DNA from: Deltaproteobacteria bacterium
GTDB lineage: Bacteria; Desulfobacterota; Desulfobacteria; Desulfobacterales; ETH-SRB1
NCBI GenBank assembly: GCA_003647525.1
Contig: QMMZ01000147.1
Span: 1-5,980, forward strand
Length of the DNA stretch: 5,980 nucleotides
Reading direction: 5' to 3'
Part shown: positions 7 through 5,797 of the stretch, in pieces
Layout: every line of letters begins with the position of its first letter
How positions within the stretch are numbered: the first letter of the stretch is position 1
Notes under the pieces: generated by a model
What the model saw: only the letters and a program-made list of their open reading frames with translations
What the model was told of the DNA's origin: nothing
Database searches by the model: none
Position numbers and translations under genes: made by a program

Positions 7-573
7 TTACGTTGTTTGCAAAAAATTCCTTAAAATACGCTTTCCGACCGATGTCATGATAGATTCAGGATGAAACTGGATTCCTTCTGTTGGATGTTTT
101 CGATGTCTGATGCCCATGATTTCGCCGTCATCGGATTCCGCACTTATCTCTAAACAATCGGGCAGATTTTCTCTTGATACAGATAAAGAGTGATAACGCA
201 TAGCCGTAAATGGTTTGCGTATGCCCTGATACAAAGTTTTTCCATCAGCCTTTATTGTGGAGGTTTTTCCATGCATTAACCGTTTGGCTGAAATTACTTT
301 TCCACCAAAAGCAACGGCAATGGTCTGATGCCCTAAACACACACCAAGGATTGGAACCAGGCCGGAGAAATGCTTAACAACTGAAAGCGATATTCCCGCT
401 GTTTCAGGCCTGCCTGGTCCTGGTGATATAACAATTCCCGAGGGTTTCATGGTAATAAGATCAGAAACAGAAACCATATCATTGCGAAATACTTTGACCG
501 GCGCTCCAAGCTGTTCAATATATTGCACCAGGTTGTATGTAAATGAATCATAGTTGTCAATCATTACGATCAT
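7..573 (-). CDS. trpG: anthranilate synthase component II (glutamine amidotransferase subunit)
   Basis: This 188-aa class I glutamine amidotransferase hydrolyses glutamine and passes ammonia to TrpE, which makes anthranilate from chorismate in the cytoplasm. The start MIVMIDNYDSFTYNLVQY is typical of TrpG/PabA. The oxyanion-strand motif SPGPG is at residues 50-54, the nucleophile Cys79 is in GVCLGHQ, and the His168/Glu170 pair is in FHPES, so the triad is intact. The length is normal for a stand-alone subunit. The start at 573 is supported by a strong AGGAGG-type ribosome site (minus strand, about 589-581) placed 7 nt upstream. That site overlaps the TAG stop of trpE, so the two genes are probably translationally coupled. 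Only 6 nt follow the stop inside the window. By operon convention trpD might come next, but it is not visible. In many bacteria one such subunit also serves PabB in folate synthesis. The trp attenuator upstream makes the tryptophan role the primary one. Confidence 0.95.
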   Translation of the reverse strand: MIVMIDNYDSFTYNLVQYIEQLGAPVKVFRNDMVSVSDLITMKPSGIVISPGPGRPETAGISLSVVKHFSGLVPILGVCLGHQTIAVAFGGKVISAKRLMHGKTSTIKADGKTLYQGIRKPFTAMRYHSLSVSRENLPDCLEISAESDDGEIMGIRHRKHPTEGIQFHPESIMTSVGKRILRNFLQTT

Positions 574-587
574 ATGTGTTTCTCCTC

Positions 588-2072
588 CTATGAGATGCTT
601 TTCTGTAATAGTTGCAGCGCCTTTTGTATTGCCATTGCTTTATTGACGGTTTCAACTCGTTCCCGTTCAGGATCGGAGTCAGCAACTATTCCTGCGCCTG
701 CCTGTACGGTCAGCAGTTTGTTTTCAATGCTGGCGGTTCTTATGGTAATGGCCAGATCCATATTGCCGTGAAAAGAAATATATCCAACTGCGCCCCCATA
801 CGGGCCTCTGGGTTCCTGTTCCAGTTCTGCGATGATTTCCATGGCTCTTACTTTAGGAGCGCCAGATAAGGTTCCGGCAGGGAATGAAGCTGATAGAAGA
901 TCCCATGCATCACAATCAGAACGCAGGTCACAGCATATGTTGGATACAAGGTGCATTACATGAGAATATCTTTCGACAATCATAAGATCTGTAACCTGAA
1001 CCGTACCAACTTTTGCAACCCGTCCGAGGTCATTGCGCCCTAAATCTACCAGCATAAGGTGTTCGGCTCTTTCTTTTTCATCTTGAAGAAGCTCATTTGC
1101 AAGTGCCCTGTCTTCCTGCTCCGTTTTTCCTCTGGGTCGTGTTCCGGCAATAGGGCGAAGGGTGGCGACTCTGTTTTCCAGCCTTACCATTGTTTCCGGT
1201 GAAGAGCCGACGAGTGCCATATCATCGAGATGCATGAAAAAGAGATAGGGAGAAGGATTAATATATCGTTGGGCCCGATAAAGTTGCAGAAGGTCAGGAG
1301 GAGTTTCACAGATAAAGGGCTGAGATATTACAGTTTGAATAACTTCTCCTTCATGGATATATTTTTTTACTGTTTTTACGTTTGATCGAAAAGTATCTGC
1401 TTCCATTTGAGCAGTCAGTTTGTATTCAGCTTGACTTTTTTGGATATTTTTCTCCCGCGGATTGCTATCCATTGATTCAAGCATGGCCTGTCTTCGAGCT
1501 GCAGCCTCTTCATAAGTTTGTTCGGGATCCTGATTTTCATCCAAAAATGCGATGATTATGCCGAAGAACGTATTGTGGATATTGTCAAAGATAATAAGTT
1601 CGTCAGGTATTATAAAATGAGCAAAAGGCTTATTTTCAGGCAACATGTTCGGGATTTTTTCAAAAAAGGAAACCATTTCATAGGTTAAATATCCTACCAT
1701 TCCTCCCCAGAACCTGGGAAGTTCAGGGATATCAGCCGGTTTGTATCTGCTCATAAAATCTCTAAGGATCGCCAGCGGTTTTCCATTATGAGGGATCTTA
1801 TTGAAGCTACCGTTGCCCTGAATTTCCACTTCTTTTTTAAACACTTTAATATGAAAGCGTGTTGAGTAGCCAAGAAAGCTGTATCTTCCCCATCTTTCAC
1901 CTCCTTCTACACTTTCAAAGAGAAATACAGGCCCTTTATTTTTATAAATTTTCTTAAAAAGAGAAACAGGGGTCTCAGTATCTGCCAGGATTTCTACACA
2001 AACAGGAATTACGTTATTGTGCCCTGCCAATTGGATAAATTTATCTTTGTCTGGAAATTGTTTTATAAGCAT
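588..2072 (-). CDS. trpE: anthranilate synthase component I (chorismate-binding subunit)
   Basis: This 494-aa protein converts chorismate and ammonia to anthranilate and pyruvate, with TrpG supplying the ammonia. The N-terminal domain carries the tryptophan feedback site: FES at residues 52-54 matches the LLES motif, and NPSPY at 272-276 is the other half of the pocket. The C-terminal chorismate-binding domain shows PIAGTRPRG (307-315), VDLGRNDLGR (342-351), FPAGTLSGAPK (397-407), YGGAVGY (425-431) and AGAGIVADSDPE (458-469), all intact. GEVIQTVISQPF (242-253) has the SQ pair usual for TrpE, which argues against the paralogue PabB, as does the Trp-codon leader upstream. The ATG at 2072 has an AAAGGAA ribosome site 5 nt upstream. 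The stop TAG at 590-588 lies within the trpG ribosome site. Expression is probably controlled by the attenuator at 2207-2455, and enzyme activity by Trp feedback. Confidence 0.96.
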   Translation of the reverse strand: MLIKQFPDKDKFIQLAGHNNVIPVCVEILADTETPVSLFKKIYKNKGPVFLFESVEGGERWGRYSFLGYSTRFHIKVFKKEVEIQGNGSFNKIPHNGKPLAILRDFMSRYKPADIPELPRFWGGMVGYLTYEMVSFFEKIPNMLPENKPFAHFIIPDELIIFDNIHNTFFGIIIAFLDENQDPEQTYEEAAARRQAMLESMDSNPREKNIQKSQAEYKLTAQMEADTFRSNVKTVKKYIHEGEVIQTVISQPFICETPPDLLQLYRAQRYINPSPYLFFMHLDDMALVGSSPETMVRLENRVATLRPIAGTRPRGKTEQEDRALANELLQDEKERAEHLMLVDLGRNDLGRVAKVGTVQVTDLMIVERYSHVMHLVSNICCDLRSDCDAWDLLSASFPAGTLSGAPKVRAMEIIAELEQEPRGPYGGAVGYISFHGNMDLAITIRTASIENKLLTVQAGAGIVADSDPERERVETVNKAMAIQKALQLLQKSIS

Positions 2073-2173: not shown

Positions 2174-2205
2174 AAAAAAGGCCGTGAACTTTTTCACGGC
2201 CTTTT
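2174..2205 (-). terminator. second intrinsic terminator in the trp leader (T2), near-symmetric
   Basis: A perfect stem of GGCCGTGAA (2180-2188) with TTCACGGCC (2193-2201), extended by A4/T4 to 13 bp, closes a 4-nt loop. On the minus strand it is followed by six T residues (2179-2174), the signature of a Rho-independent terminator acting on transcripts entering trpE. On the plus strand it is also followed by T4, so it could work in both directions. It lies about 100 bp upstream of the trpE start and downstream of the attenuator terminator. Any transcript from the leader promoter must therefore pass it. Confidence 0.85.
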
Positions 2206-2206
2206 G

Positions 2207-2243
2207 AAAATAAAAAACCGTGGGTTTTGGGTCTGCCCACGGT
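2207..2243 (-). terminator. trp attenuator terminator (3:4 hairpin, T1)
   Basis: On the minus strand CCGTGGG (2242-2236) pairs with CCCACGG (2224-2218) across an 11-nt loop, extended by A2243 with T2217. The stem is followed by TTTTTTATTTT (2217-2207). The upstream arm (region 3) can instead pair with the distal part of the leader-peptide gene (region 2, 2379-2367), so termination and antitermination are mutually exclusive, as in classical trp attenuators. Confidence 0.87.
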
Positions 2244-2255
2244 CCTTAAAGCTTA

Positions 2256-2361
2256 TATAGACTTTCAGATAATTAATTTCACTGCGTTATCAGTCGTCGA
2301 CGTATAACTAATACGCCTTCCTCCTTCTAGCCTTGTGAAATTAATTATCTGAAAGTCTATA
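2256..2361. repeat. 106-nt element with a perfect 27-bp inverted repeat
   Basis: The arms 2256-2282 (starting TATAGACTTTCAG) and 2335-2361 are exact reverse complements over 27 bp and flank a 52-nt centre. The centre holds a second small hairpin, CGTAT-aacta-ATACG (2301-2315), the hexamer GTCGAC (2296-2301), and a pyrimidine tract that reads AGAAGGAGGAAGG on the minus strand. No coding potential is seen. The element starts one base after the trpL stop codon and ends just before the antiterminator region 3 segment. It resembles a small non-autonomous dispersed repeat (MITE- or REP-like). I believe similar hairpins occur in deltaproteobacterial intergenic regions, but this is from memory and unverified. 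No clear target-site duplication is visible. Confidence 0.9.
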
Positions 2362-2362
2362 G

Positions 2363-2455
2363 TTAATAAAGTTCCGGTGACATCTCCGCAAATTCGAGCC
2401 ACCACCAGCAACATTTAACGTTTATATTATTTTTAGTATTTATTATTTTTAGCAT
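2363..2455 (-). CDS. trpL: trp operon leader peptide
   Basis: This 30-codon ORF starts at ATG 2455-2453 and stops at TAA 2365-2363. The peptide begins MLKIINTKNN and has the run KCCWWWLEF in its middle: Trp17, Trp18 and Trp19 are consecutive UGG codons (2407-2399), a density not expected by chance. Its role is regulatory: the translating ribosome senses charged tRNA-Trp and sets the fold of the downstream attenuator. The stop codon lies just downstream of attenuator region 2, where a ribosome would mask it. A weak ribosome site, AAGAGA (2471-2466), is 10 nt upstream of the ATG, and a TATAAT box lies about 28 nt upstream. The peptide is not expected to have an enzymatic role. Confidence 0.88.
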   Translation of the reverse strand: MLKIINTKNNINVKCCWWWLEFAEMSPELY

Positions 2456-2488: not shown

Positions 2489-2569
2489 CGACTTAATTAG
2501 CTGTTTTTGGGGGTGGTTGTCAAGGTGTTTTTAGATATACTCAGGGGGATTTGTTCAGGCACTAATTAC

Positions 2570-2627: not shown

Positions 2628-2972
2628 ATGAAAGAATTCGTCAAAGTAATGAAAGCCCTTTCTGATATTAACAGGGTAAAAATCGTCAAGCTGCTTCAGC
2701 ATAAGATGATGTGCGTATGTGAACTTCAGACCGCATTAGAGGTTGCCCAGCCCACGGTTTCAAAACATTTAAAAATACTTGAACATGCCGGTCTTGTTGT
2801 TTCAAAGAAAGAAGGCCTGTGGGTTAACTATTATCTTTCTGATGGTAGTGCTTCACCTTATGCTGCGAGTATGCTGGGGAACCTGAGACACTGGCTTGAT
2901 CATGATCCTGAGCTTAAGGAAATAATTGAGAGATTACCTGGTATCCGCAGAGATCTGATTTGTAATATTTAA
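2628..2972 (+). CDS. arsR: ArsR/SmtB-family metal(loid)-responsive repressor
   Basis: This 114-aa winged-helix repressor has the ArsR family layout: N-terminal helix MKALSDINRVKIVKLL, then the metal-binding segment MCVCEL (Cys29, Cys31), the recognition helix with QPTVSKHLKILEHAGLV (about 41-57), and the wing KEGLWVNYYL (61-70). In the well-studied E. coli ArsR, arsenite or antimonite is bound by three cysteines in ELCVCDLC. Here the first two are kept and the third position is Gln34. A lone Cys112 at the C-terminus could supply a third ligand, as in other family variants, but this is speculation. Apo-repressor would bind the dyad at 2593-2614 and release on metal(loid) binding, inducing the permease and thioredoxin genes downstream. 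Family assignment is firm; the inducer, arsenite, antimonite or another thiophilic metal, cannot be fixed from sequence. Confidence 0.93.
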   Translation: MKEFVKVMKALSDINRVKIVKLLQHKMMCVCELQTALEVAQPTVSKHLKILEHAGLVVSKKEGLWVNYYLSDGSASPYAASMLGNLRHWLDHDPELKEIIERLPGIRRDLICNI

Positions 2973-3022
2973 CATAAATATGGCTAAATCCCTATATGGC
3001 TATATTTTGGAGTAAAATATTT

Positions 3023-4195
3023 ATGAAAGAACGGACAAAATTATTGCTTATTATACTGGTTTTTCTTGCATGTTACTATGTGCCATGGAGTCATCCAACT
3101 ATAAGACAGGCAGGACTTGAAGCTTTTATGATGCTTCAGGAATATGCCAGAGAGCATGTTCTGACCTGCCTTATCCCGGCTTTTTTTATTGCCGGAGCCG
3201 TTGCTGTTTTTGTATCACAGGCCTCGGTACTAAAGTACTTTGGCGCATCAGCAAAAAAAATTCTTTCCTACTCTGTAGCCTCAATATCAGGATCCGTTCT
3301 TGCTGTATGTTCCTGTACTGTTTTGCCCCTTTTTGCAGGAATTTATACAAGAGGTGCCGGTATCGGTCCTGCTACTGCTTTTCTATATTCAGGCCCGGCA
3401 ATAAATGTTCTGGCGATTGTTTTGACCGGAAGAATACTGGGCTGGCAGATGGGTTTGGCGCGTGCTGTTGGAGCAGTAATTTTTGCCATTATTACAGGAC
3501 TTCTAATGGCTTTTTTCTTCAGAAAAGATGATGCTGCACGCGAAACAGGCCAGATCTATGTTCCAGAAGACGAAGATAAAGGCCGCACCCTGAGACAGAA
3601 TGCTTTTTACATGCTGACAATGGTTTTGATTCTTGTTTTTGCAGCTTTTGCAAGACCGGCTCCAGGTTCTGCCGGGCTTTGGCAAATTATCTTTGCCGCA
3701 AAATGGTATATAACGGCTTTTTTTCTGATAGTATTATTTATTATGTTAAAAAGCTGGTTTACAAAGGATGAAAGAATAAACTGGGTGCAATCTACCTGGG
3801 GATTTATGAAACAGATTTTTCCTCTTCTTGGAGCGGGTGTTCTTGTTGCCGGTTTTATGCTGGGCAGGCCGGGACATTCCGCTCTTATCCCTGAGCATTA
3901 TATTCAAACCCTGGTAGGAGGAAATTCTTTGTGTGCTAATTTATTTGCTTCTGTTTCAGGTGCTTTTATGTATTTTGCCACCTTAACCGAAGTCCCCATT
4001 CTTCAAGGTCTTATTGGCGCTGGTATGGGGAAAGGGCCTGCGCTTTCACTTCTTCTAGCAGGACCGGCGCTTTCACCTCCCAATATGCTTGTTATTGGTG
4101 GGGTTATGGGGGCGAAGAAAACTCTTACATTTTGTTTGATAATTGTAGTTTTGTCCACGATTGCCGGTACGGGTTATGGATGGATTGCGGCTTAA
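3023..4195 (+). CDS. PF03773-family permease (ArsP_1-like)
   Basis: This 390-aa integral membrane protein has about ten predicted hydrophobic segments. Its family signature lies in two pseudo-symmetric halves. The first half has AVCSCTVLPLFAGIY with a CSC pair at residues 96-98, then FLYSGPAINVLAI (120-132). The second half has FATLTEVP (318-325) and AGPALSPPN (346-354). A charged cytoplasmic loop (about 167-193) separates the halves. Members of this family include the organoarsenical exporter ArsP and other metal-linked permeases. The arsR upstream suggests thiophilic metal or metalloid efflux, with the CSC cysteines as candidate ligands. The exact substrate is unknown, so no symbol is given. 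An in-frame ATG at 2996 would add nine residues but has no ribosome site. The start at 3023 has GGAG (3009-3012) 10 nt upstream and leads into a positively charged, then hydrophobic, N-terminus. The gap from arsR is 50 nt with no terminator, so the two are probably cotranscribed. Confidence 0.87.
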   Translation: MKERTKLLLIILVFLACYYVPWSHPTIRQAGLEAFMMLQEYAREHVLTCLIPAFFIAGAVAVFVSQASVLKYFGASAKKILSYSVASISGSVLAVCSCTVLPLFAGIYTRGAGIGPATAFLYSGPAINVLAIVLTGRILGWQMGLARAVGAVIFAIITGLLMAFFFRKDDAARETGQIYVPEDEDKGRTLRQNAFYMLTMVLILVFAAFARPAPGSAGLWQIIFAAKWYITAFFLIVLFIMLKSWFTKDERINWVQSTWGFMKQIFPLLGAGVLVAGFMLGRPGHSALIPEHYIQTLVGGNSLCANLFASVSGAFMYFATLTEVPILQGLIGAGMGKGPALSLLLAGPALSPPNMLVIGGVMGAKKTLTFCLIIVVLSTIAGTGYGWIAA

Positions 4196-4514
4196 TGAAG
4201 AGCTATACCGCTTCAGGTATAATCAAATTAAAACCATGAAAAACTCTCGCATAACATATCATAAAGAAAGAACTCGCAGCGAATTTAAAGATATTATTAC
4301 AGTTAAGCGAAGTATTATAGAAAAATACATAATCCTGTCAGGTTCTTTCTTAATGATATCTAATGCGTTCAAACAGTTCCCTGATTTTAATTTGATCATA
4401 CCTGAAGCTCTTTCGCAAATATAGCTGTTGTCATAAATATATTCCGATTGGTTATAAACGGAACATTAATCTAACGAACACTATAAGTGTGCGAAACTTG
4501 AGGAGGTATCGTTA
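4196..4514. other. 319-bp non-coding gap between permease and thioredoxin genes
   Basis: No convincing gene is seen. A weak hairpin TATACC-gcttca-GGTATA (4204-4221) follows the permease stop but lacks a T run, so it is not a clear terminator. An open frame through 4424 has no ribosome site and no recognisable product. The last 80 bp hold a candidate promoter and a dyad upstream of the next gene. The downstream genes may therefore have their own promoter as well as readthrough from arsR. Confidence 0.6.
4475..4493. promoter_or_regulatory. dyad upstream of the two-domain thioredoxin gene
   Basis: CG-A-ACACT-ATA-AGTGT-G-CG is a near-perfect 19-bp palindrome with one mismatch pair, ending 7 nt before the AGGAGG ribosome site (4501-4506). 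It could be a repressor operator or a small mRNA hairpin. A weak promoter, TTGTCA (4428-4433) with TATAAA (4453-4458) at 19-bp spacing, would place the dyad just downstream of the start site. It does not match the putative ArsR operator at 2593-2614. Confidence 0.4.
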
Positions 4515-5009
4515 ATGTCACGGGATGATACCAGACAGATAAAAGTAGGTGGCCACAGTATAGGCATTATTGGCATGGCACAGGTTCTGGAAGAAGTAGC
4601 AAAAGACTTTGTCGAAAGGGATGACTCGGAAATCCAGATCGAACTTTTAAGCAGACTTTCAAGAAGCAACTATATCCCTGAAAGCATGCGAGATAGTTAC
4701 GATAGAGCTTTTTTGCACGAATTCAAGAAATATATTGTGGAACCTTATGATGAAGAGGTTTCAGAAGGGCTTGAGATAAAAGTACTGGGCCCTGGATGCT
4801 CTCAGTGCGACATGCTGGATAAAATATTGATTGAAGTTTTGTCTGAGATGAACATTCTGGCTGATATGGAGCATGTTAGAGACATCAAGGAGATAGGCAA
4901 ATACGGAGTAATGGGGACTCCGGCATTAGTAATTAATGGAAAGGTGGTATCGGTTGGTAAGGTACCAGGCAAAGAAAAGCTCAAAGAATGGCTTAGTGAA
5001 TCAGCATAA
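4515..5009 (+). CDS. two-domain protein with C-terminal mini-thioredoxin (redox-active disulfide) domain
   Basis: This is a 164-aa cytoplasmic protein. Residues 87-164 are a mini-thioredoxin of the 'redox-active disulfide protein 2' type (TIGR00412-like): beta strand LEIKVLGPG, active site C95-S-Q-C98, cis-Pro in GTPA (134-137) and the ending SVGKVP...KEWL. It closely parallels the stand-alone 80-aa protein at 5181. Residues 1-80 are a separate, mostly helical and acidic segment with the landmarks VGGHSIGIIG, NYIPESMRDSYDRAFLHEF and no cysteine. I do not recognise it by name, though I have the impression it occurs as a small partner domain in other anaerobes. The start is supported by AGGAGG (4501-4506) 8 nt upstream. 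The protein probably supplies or senses thiol reducing power next to the permease and ArsR. The N-terminal domain may dock it to a partner. Confidence 0.85.
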   Translation: MSRDDTRQIKVGGHSIGIIGMAQVLEEVAKDFVERDDSEIQIELLSRLSRSNYIPESMRDSYDRAFLHEFKKYIVEPYDEEVSEGLEIKVLGPGCSQCDMLDKILIEVLSEMNILADMEHVRDIKEIGKYGVMGTPALVINGKVVSVGKVPGKEKLKEWLSESA

Positions 5010-5010
5010 A

Positions 5011-5167
5011 CTAAATTGAGCAATTAGCCATTAGCTTTTAGTAGTTAGCACAATAATTTCAGTAGCTTTGCTAAAGGGTAACATTTCACCCAAAGGGTGA
5101 AAATCGAATTGCTGGTAAACACCGAAATAATAAGAGCTAATTGCTAAGAGCTAATCGCTTATTTTAG
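5011..5167. repeat. nested imperfect inverted repeat between the two mini-thioredoxin genes
   Basis: The ends 5011-5035 and 5143-5167 are inverted copies agreeing at 20 of 25 positions, pattern CTAAAnTnAGCnATTAGCnnTTAGC. At the centre is a perfect hairpin TTTCACCC-aaa-GGGTGAAA (5084-5102). The TTAGC/GCTAA word recurs several times in each half. No T run follows, so it is not a simple terminator. No coding potential is seen. The element fills nearly all of the 171-bp gap, ending 2 nt before the next ribosome site (AAGGAG, 5170-5175). It looks like a MITE-like or other dispersed palindromic element, or an mRNA-processing hairpin. Confidence 0.75.
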
Positions 5168-5180
5168 TTAAGGAGAAAAA

Positions 5181-5423
5181 ATGGAGATAAAAATACTGGG
5201 GCCAGGTTGCCCAAAGTGCAAACAGACCGAGGAACTTGTCAGGAAAGTAGTAATTGAAACCGGTGTTGACGCAAACGTAGAGAAGGTGAGTGACCTAATG
5301 GAGATCGCTGGCTATGGCGTTTTTGGAACTCCGGCTGTGGTTGTTGATGAAAAGGTCAAGAGTGTTGGCAAGGTTCCAACAATGGAAGAGATAAAGACAT
5401 GGATTGGAAGGAATATATTATGA
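5181..5423 (+). CDS. mini-thioredoxin (redox-active disulfide protein, TIGR00412-like)
   Basis: This 80-aa single-domain thioredoxin-fold protein begins MEIKILGPGCPKC, with active site C10-P-K-C13, cis-Pro51 in FGTPAVVV and the ending SVGKVPTMEEIKTWI. The length is normal for this family, which is shorter than thioredoxin and common in anaerobes and archaea. It has no signal peptide, so it acts in the cytoplasm as a dithiol/disulfide carrier. It is a paralogue of the C-terminal half of the 4515-5009 product, suggesting tandem duplication with an extra domain on one copy. AAGGAG lies 5 nt before the ATG. Its TGA stop overlaps the next start in an ATGA (5420-5423), implying translational coupling to the exported thioredoxin. 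Confidence 0.92.
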   Translation: MEIKILGPGCPKCKQTEELVRKVVIETGVDANVEKVSDLMEIAGYGVFGTPAVVVDEKVKSVGKVPTMEEIKTWIGRNIL

Positions 5424-5797
5424 AAAATAGTAGAATAAAAACGTTCCTGTATGTTCTATTAATTTTTTGTGCAGGTACAGCATATGCTTTTTCAGACGAA
5501 TTTGAAAAAATGCCGGTAAAGGGAATGGTAACCATGATAGATCTGGGGGCAAAGAAATGCATACCATGTAAAATGATGGCTCCGATTCTGGAAAAGATGG
5601 AAAAAAAATACAAAGATAAAGCAGACATTATCTTTATTGATGTTTGGGAGAACAATGACGAGGCAGGAAGATTCGGTATACGTTCCATACCAACGCAAAT
5701 CTTTTTTGATCAACAGGGTAAAGAGGTGTATCGCCATGTCGGATTTATGAGCGAAAAAGCCATTGTTAATCAATTAAAGAAAATGGGAGTTGAATAA
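5420..5797 (+). CDS. exported thioredoxin-fold protein with CIPC active site
   Basis: This 125-aa thioredoxin-fold protein has an N-terminal signal peptide: basic MKNSRIK, hydrophobic core FLYVLLIFCAGT, probable signal peptidase I site AYA|F after residue 23. The mature domain has active site C47-I-P-C50 in LGAKKCIPCKMMAPIL, FIDVWEN, cis-Pro91 in RSIPTQIFF and the final GF...I..QLKKMG. The Cys in the signal peptide is preceded by Phe, so a lipobox is unlikely. An upstream in-frame ATG at 5399 would hide the signal peptide and lacks a ribosome site. The 5420 start has AAGGA 7 nt upstream and a 4-nt overlap with the preceding stop. It probably acts in the periplasm as a thiol reductant fed through the CcdA-like protein that begins next. 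It may serve metal(loid) handling or another disulfide target. Confidence 0.9.
   Translation: MKNSRIKTFLYVLLIFCAGTAYAFSDEFEKMPVKGMVTMIDLGAKKCIPCKMMAPILEKMEKKYKDKADIIFIDVWENNDEAGRFGIRSIPTQIFFDQQGKEVYRHVGFMSEKAIVNQLKKMGVE

Follow-up and report, generated by a model that had tools for sequence, protein, structure and literature searches.

A putatively mobile 106-nt hairpin repeat within the predicted two-terminator trp attenuator of a Desulfobacterales bacterium

The trp Leader and Its Surroundings

The window, by which the whole analyzed stretch of 5,980 nucleotides is meant (contig QMMZ01000147.1 of assembly GCA_003647525.1, from a deltaproteobacterium of the order Desulfobacterales), carries on its minus strand trpE, encoding anthranilate synthase component I (588..2072; Pfam PF00425 and PF04715), and trpG, encoding the glutamine amidotransferase component (7..573; PF00117). 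The leader upstream of trpE is read on the same strand in the order trpL, a 106-nt hairpin element, region 3, terminator T1 and terminator T2, after which trpE and trpG follow. The trpL frame (2363..2455, minus strand) encodes a leader peptide of 30 amino acids, MLKIINTKNNINVKCCWWWLEFAEMSPELY*, with three consecutive Trp codons at 2407-2399, and leader ORFs with Trp codons are also found upstream of trpE in relatives. A probable trp promoter, TTGACA-18-TAATTA, was read by eye at 2494..2523 (minus strand) and is absent from the output of a promoter scan of the window; promoter-like sequences similar to it are present in L040, L042, L043, L045, L046, and L178. Further along, at 2628-5797, Pfam assigns a row of an ArsR-type regulator, an ArsP_1 permease and three thioredoxin-like proteins.

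The element (2256..2361) begins at 2361, one base past the trpL stop on the minus strand, and ends in TATAG...CTATA (TATAGACTTTCAG ends). Its arms, 2335..2361 as the 5' arm in the trp leader RNA and 2256..2282 as the 3' arm, are 27 nt each, 100% complementary and spaced by 52 nt, and by simple arithmetic the chance of a perfect 27-nt match in 6 kb is negligible. Region 2, the 5' half of the antiterminator (about 2369..2387, minus strand), lies on one side of the element, and region 3 (about 2230..2247, minus strand), which serves both as the 3' half of the antiterminator and as the 5' arm of T1, on the other; both were placed by RNAfold, the former also by 2:3 co-variation in 59 other leaders. 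The initial annotation had placed the perfect 27-bp inverted repeat one base after the trpL stop, with antiterminator regions 2 and 3 on either side, and this placement is confirmed. Among 25 inverted repeats listed, of 27 in the window, the element's arms are the sole 100% pair, and two longer ones are imperfect (32 nt at 88% and 28 nt at 71%). A search against Rfam at E up to 1 returned no family, the single match being a microRNA precursor model that scored 22.3 bits against a gathering threshold of 144 and is taken as chance.

Downstream of region 3, the attenuator terminator T1 (3:4; 2213..2247, minus strand) is followed by T2 (5:6; 2176..2205, minus strand), a second terminator that the initial annotation had not included; region 5, its 5' arm, is able to pair with region 4, the 3' arm of T1 (4:5). 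Other repeats are visible in the window as well. Two imperfect inverted repeats (32 nt, 88%; 26 nt, 88%) are nested at 4210-4408 and are probably another mobile repeat; a sequence similar by eye lies upstream of trpE in L046. Just upstream of trpE, at 2101-2135, the sequence CCACGGATTTTCACGGAATTACACTGAATTATC appears to be another dispersed repeat; by eye it occurs twice in L040, and a near-identical sequence stands beside the element copy in L008.

A Dispersed Repeat Family

In the nearest genome, G001, 36 places, several with truncated copies, match the 106 nt at E < 1e-11, and at E <= 0.001 the element is matched in 26 of 58 related genomes (17/17 in the nearest family, 9/41 among the others). 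Counts of the 27-nt arm in eight genomes of the genus, made with up to 3 mismatches on both strands, came to 65, 69, 138, 148, 74, 30, 150, and 2, so that seven of the eight congeners hold 30 to 150 and the eighth 2, and the reversed arm pattern, used as a control, gave 0 matches in the same eight genomes. An exact 40-nt pattern of the element is found in 20 stretches of the named genome collection, all of which bear titles naming metagenome-derived Deltaproteobacteria, Desulfobacterales or Desulfobacteraceae, and one has a contig name labeled EthSRB1; the carriers of the repeat include uncultured Desulfobacterales. A 1.2-Mb sample of G004, chosen by contig rank and independently of any match, holds 31 arm pairs shorter than 300 nt, 19 of them of exactly 106 nt and 3 of those perfect-stemmed, and its ORFs of at least 150 aa contain none of the 31. 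Plasmid and phage collections gave no match to the element at E 1e-5, nor did viral contigs contain its 21-nt inner pattern as an exact match.

The element is thus short, non-coding, dispersed and multi-copy, it has terminal inverted repeats, and its site in the trp leader is empty in six congeners, as expected of a miniature inverted-repeat element (MITE). The mobile repeat proposed in the initial annotation is borne out by these copies in the genomes of relatives (dispersed, TA-ended), which support the assignment of the 106-nt hairpin to a dispersed mobile repeat family, and transposition is the presumed means of its spread. In 64 copies searched for direct repeats with k from 2 to 10, no sign of a target duplication appeared; a duplicated TA would look the same as the palindromic TA ends. 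As for an IS630-type partner, 0 of 11 DDE_3 loci, drawn from three of the eight congeners, bear the element's arm, and as for a parent transposon, no neighboring arm pair measures 0.3-5 kb in the 1.2 Mb of G004. Outside trp, six alignments were inspected for empty sites, of which one is filled in both genomes, one retains a left-arm remnant and four are too unclean to fix the target, and at the trp site itself occupied and empty flanks differ by about 5 nt, which obscures the exact ancestral target.

A target preference for hairpin loops was tried and rejected, 3 of 61 copies being above the 5% level in a shuffle test; by eye, the copies in L005 and L006 lie within palindromes, and these are among the 3 of 64 copies omitted from that test for flanks shorter than 35 nt, so that a weak loop preference may still exist. 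Two further repeats were seen next to or inside element copies: truncated G001 copies (L018-L026, L029, L041) abut a repeat with CTAACCGCACAGG ends, which in L041 stands immediately before trpE and may contain a small ORF, and a different hairpin repeat with GGAACGTGGACGAA ends (L042, L082, and L083) is nested within copies of the element and is also present in the trp leader of G002.

Occupied and Empty trp Leaders

At the trp site, the element is missing in six congeners (L040, L043, L044, L045, L046, and L178; the contig of L044 starts inside the site, and its trpL is out of view). When leaders with and without the element are compared, as the initial annotation had proposed, the two sides of the element prove to be colinear halves of one trp leader, with the same predicted 2:3 helix. 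The trp leader of G002 has a different hairpin repeat and, by eye, no WWW-type trpL. In G001, a copy abuts T1 at the same base as the element of the window, with unrelated sequence on the trpL side; beyond T2 come other repeats and then an ORF resembling a pilT-type ATPase (by eye), and trpE sits on another contig. This leader region (G001:C323) looks chimeric or rearranged, and its filled site next to T1, with unrelated sequence in place of trpL, makes any dating of the insertion tentative.

As for the stem, 44 copies of 106 nt (that of the window included), which were drawn from loci matching the window and are therefore biased towards window-like copies, have perfect stems in 13 cases, one mismatch in 17 and two in 14, and their variability per position averages 1.4-3.2%. 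Two other species have copies identical over the 106 nt at different loci (G008:C298 and G002:C377; L031 and L032), and a third copy, G002:C325, is given at 100%. Because perfect stems occur in 13 of the 44 copies, the perfect stem is a trait of the family rather than something kept at the trp site, and together with the identical copies elsewhere this means either a recent insertion or homogenization across the family. The initial annotation had offered a recent insertion or maintenance by selection as the two alternatives; the former agrees with the copies elsewhere that differ from this one at 0 positions, whereas selection on the stem at the trp site finds no support, with perfect stems across the family and the same 106 nt elsewhere in other species. 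Most likely, the copy in the trp leader is a recent insertion that is tolerated.

Folding of the Leader With and Without the Element

In RNAfold predictions for an RNA ending at region 3, the same 2:3 helix is formed with and without the element, at equilibrium energies for the RNA alone of -10.8 kcal/mol for the empty leader, -61.2 for the occupied leader and -48.2 for the element by itself. The initial annotation had argued that regions 2 and 3 meet at the base of the folded hairpin and that the attenuator could thus keep working, and in silico this holds, as the 2:3 helix is unchanged by the element. In an RNA extended through region 4 and past it, T1 plus T2 has the lowest energy, element or not, and antitermination would for this reason have to be kinetic. 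No break is seen in the window in the trpL frame, its Trp codons, 2:3, T1 or T2. The leader has the leader peptide with regulatory Trp codons of a classical trp attenuator as well as a mutually exclusive antiterminator and terminator, the latter judged from predicted folds and from co-variation in relatives. Between the trpL stop and T1, 59 other leaders have 9-59 nt (median 26) and the window has about 115 nt, and timing may therefore differ.

Two Tandem Terminators and Their Co-variation

Among 49 trp leaders read by hand, 44 have two tandem terminators. In an automatic count over 125 regions upstream of trpE, from the window and its relatives, 112 contain a candidate leader peptide, for which the loose requirement was two TGG within three codons, so that some may be false; across the order, 91 of these candidate leaders have two tandem hairpins and 21 have one, the terminator rule being an undercount, as four of the 21 (L165, L166, L169, and L172) were read as tandem by hand. 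Co-variation was tested on 59 non-redundant leaders, that is, the 91 tandem ones minus near-identical rows, the window among them, and minus L042, which passes the leader-peptide rule and has by eye no WWW-type trpL.

For each pair of regions, the pairing energy with the own partner was compared with that with partners from other species, centered by row and column, over 5000 permutations, a procedure that leaves some effects of shared ancestry in the signals. The own-partner gain is -4.66 kcal for 3:4 (z -12.4), -5.98 kcal for 5:6 (z -16.6) and -2.82 kcal for 4:5 (z -8.6, 0/5000), while the controls 3:6 (-0.26 kcal, z -0.9, 869/5000) and 3:5 (-0.13 kcal, z -0.6, 1461/5000) are close to zero and 4:6 gives a weaker signal (-0.57 kcal, z -2.9, 14/5000). 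By the same method, with 3000 permutations, z is -8.4 for 2:3 (0/3000), -3.6 for 1:2 (0/3000) and -0.3 for the control 2:4 (1172/3000), so that 4:5 and the classical 2:3 co-vary to a similar degree. The 4:5 signal persists when outer A/T pairs are stripped (z -7.2, 0/5000, versus z -2.5, 27/5000, for 3:6 and z -1.9, 160/5000, for 4:6), in a stricter set of 35 leaders (z -6.0, 0/5000, versus z -2.5, 35/5000, for 3:6) and in an earlier hand-read set of 31 (2/5000, versus 423/5000 for 3:6); a small 3:6 signal would be expected indirectly if 3:4, 4:5, and 5:6 are all kept. On average, E45 is weaker than E56 (-18.75 vs. -23.15), and seven congeners have a stronger 4:5 (-17.1 to -20.0) than the window (-14.0). 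Taken from the sequences, this pattern suggests a relay attenuator, in which 2:3 plus 4:5 would correspond to read-through and 3:4 plus 5:6 to a stop.

Interpretation

The locus is best explained, with high probability in our judgment, by a recent insertion of a 106-bp non-autonomous MITE in the antiterminator loop, tolerated by a two-terminator attenuator that looks intact as its host. The RNA of the element would fold on itself, so that regions 2 and 3 stay neighbors and a ribosome stalled at the Trp codons could still allow 2:3 to form. Formation of 2:3 would leave region 4 free to capture region 5 on its emergence, and both T1 and T2 would be avoided; upon full translation of trpL, 3:4 and 5:6 would form and transcription would stop. 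The fast-folding hairpin would make the insertion tolerable without being required. That the trp operon of the order is under a relay of exclusive helices (1:2, 2:3, 3:4, 4:5, and 5:6), and that the relay of the window still works with the mobile element in it, we hold to be somewhat the better bet. The repeat family, the empty congener sites, the preserved 2:3 fold and the co-variation of 2:3, 3:4, 4:5, and 5:6 are computed, whereas transposition, a working switch in living cells and the order in which the helices form over time are inferred.

The insertion can coexist with a processing role by analogy with Correia repeats, in which RNase III would cut the stem, part the trpL RNA from the trpE mRNA and set the stability of the message. 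Cleavage of transcripts at Correia repeats is among the findings reported for these elements (PMC10969869) and a perfect 27-bp stem would be a likely substrate, but a cut after the termination decision would leave attenuation unchanged, and such processing is here a tentative proposal. Slightly more doubtful is an impaired attenuation, in which the extra 106 nt would delay region 3 until the ribosome has left the stop and 1:2 or 2:3 reforms, with constitutively low or raised expression as the outcome. The long stop-to-T1 distance, outside the range of the 59 other leaders, and a 4:5 helix that is the weakest among the eight genus leaders compared are what this reading would lead one to expect; against it, no part of the switch from trpL to T2 is damaged in the window, and a strong local hairpin should fold while it is being made.

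A scaffold role, for which the initial annotation had considered domestication of the repeat, appears improbable. A stem kept to hold regions 2 and 3 together and improve the switch is compatible with the fold, in which 2:3 is nominally about 2 kcal/mol better with the element (-61.2 minus -48.2 = -13.0 vs. -10.8), and with the G001 copy that abuts T1 at the same base. However, the six congeners do without the element at the trp site, the empty leader makes its own 2:3 helix, the perfect stem is common to the family, and the zero divergence from copies elsewhere gives no sign of site-specific selection, so that the proposal is left without support. An assembly artifact, in which a misjoined repeat copy would have ended up in the trp leader, is very unlikely, as the sides of the element are halves of one trp leader and colinear with the empty leaders of congeners, even though many G001 copies lie at or near contig ends and G001:C323 itself looks chimeric or rearranged.

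With a tolerated insertion as the preferred reading, the element provides a natural test of the distance by which antiterminator halves can be parted if the insert folds, and antiterminator loops would be able to accept large hairpins. The relay, if true, would let one ribosome decision control two terminators for a tighter shut-off, and the 4:5 helix yields simple mutational predictions. Of the two findings, the relay is the more novel; the literature searched, which covered few subscription journals, described neither linked terminators in trp leaders nor a MITE in an attenuator.

Comparison With Known Systems

With the classical trp attenuator, the leader of the window shares a trpL with tandem Trp codons, the helices 1:2, 2:3, and 3:4, and the place upstream of trpE; beyond these, it has a further terminator, linked to the first by 4:5 pairing, and a MITE between regions 2 and 3. 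The element resembles, in architecture and on that basis alone, the Correia or NEMIS repeats of Neisseria, described as having a form of about 107 bp with long terminal inverted repeats, TA ends, many copies and an RNA hairpin (PMC2229807, PMC10969869), but its hosts belong to a different group, and a transposase partner, or a target duplication beyond an ambiguous TA, was not seen here in a limited search. RUP of Streptococcus pneumoniae, given as 107 bp long, inserting at TA and present in about 100 intergenic copies (PMC2229807), is likewise similar in architecture and has a proposed IS630 partner, whereas none was found here in a limited search. Among tandem arrangements, the rimP-leader of Gammaproteobacteria has a tandem second terminator and a potential antiterminator (PMC2965389); it precedes another gene, and the parts of its description consulted contain neither a leader peptide nor a 4:5 relay, unlike the trp leader described here. 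In Salmonella mgtCBR, tandem attenuators, more than one per leader, are reported (PMC3641672), and they respond to two independent signals through stem-loops unlike intrinsic terminators, whereas in the trp leader one signal would act on two linked terminators.
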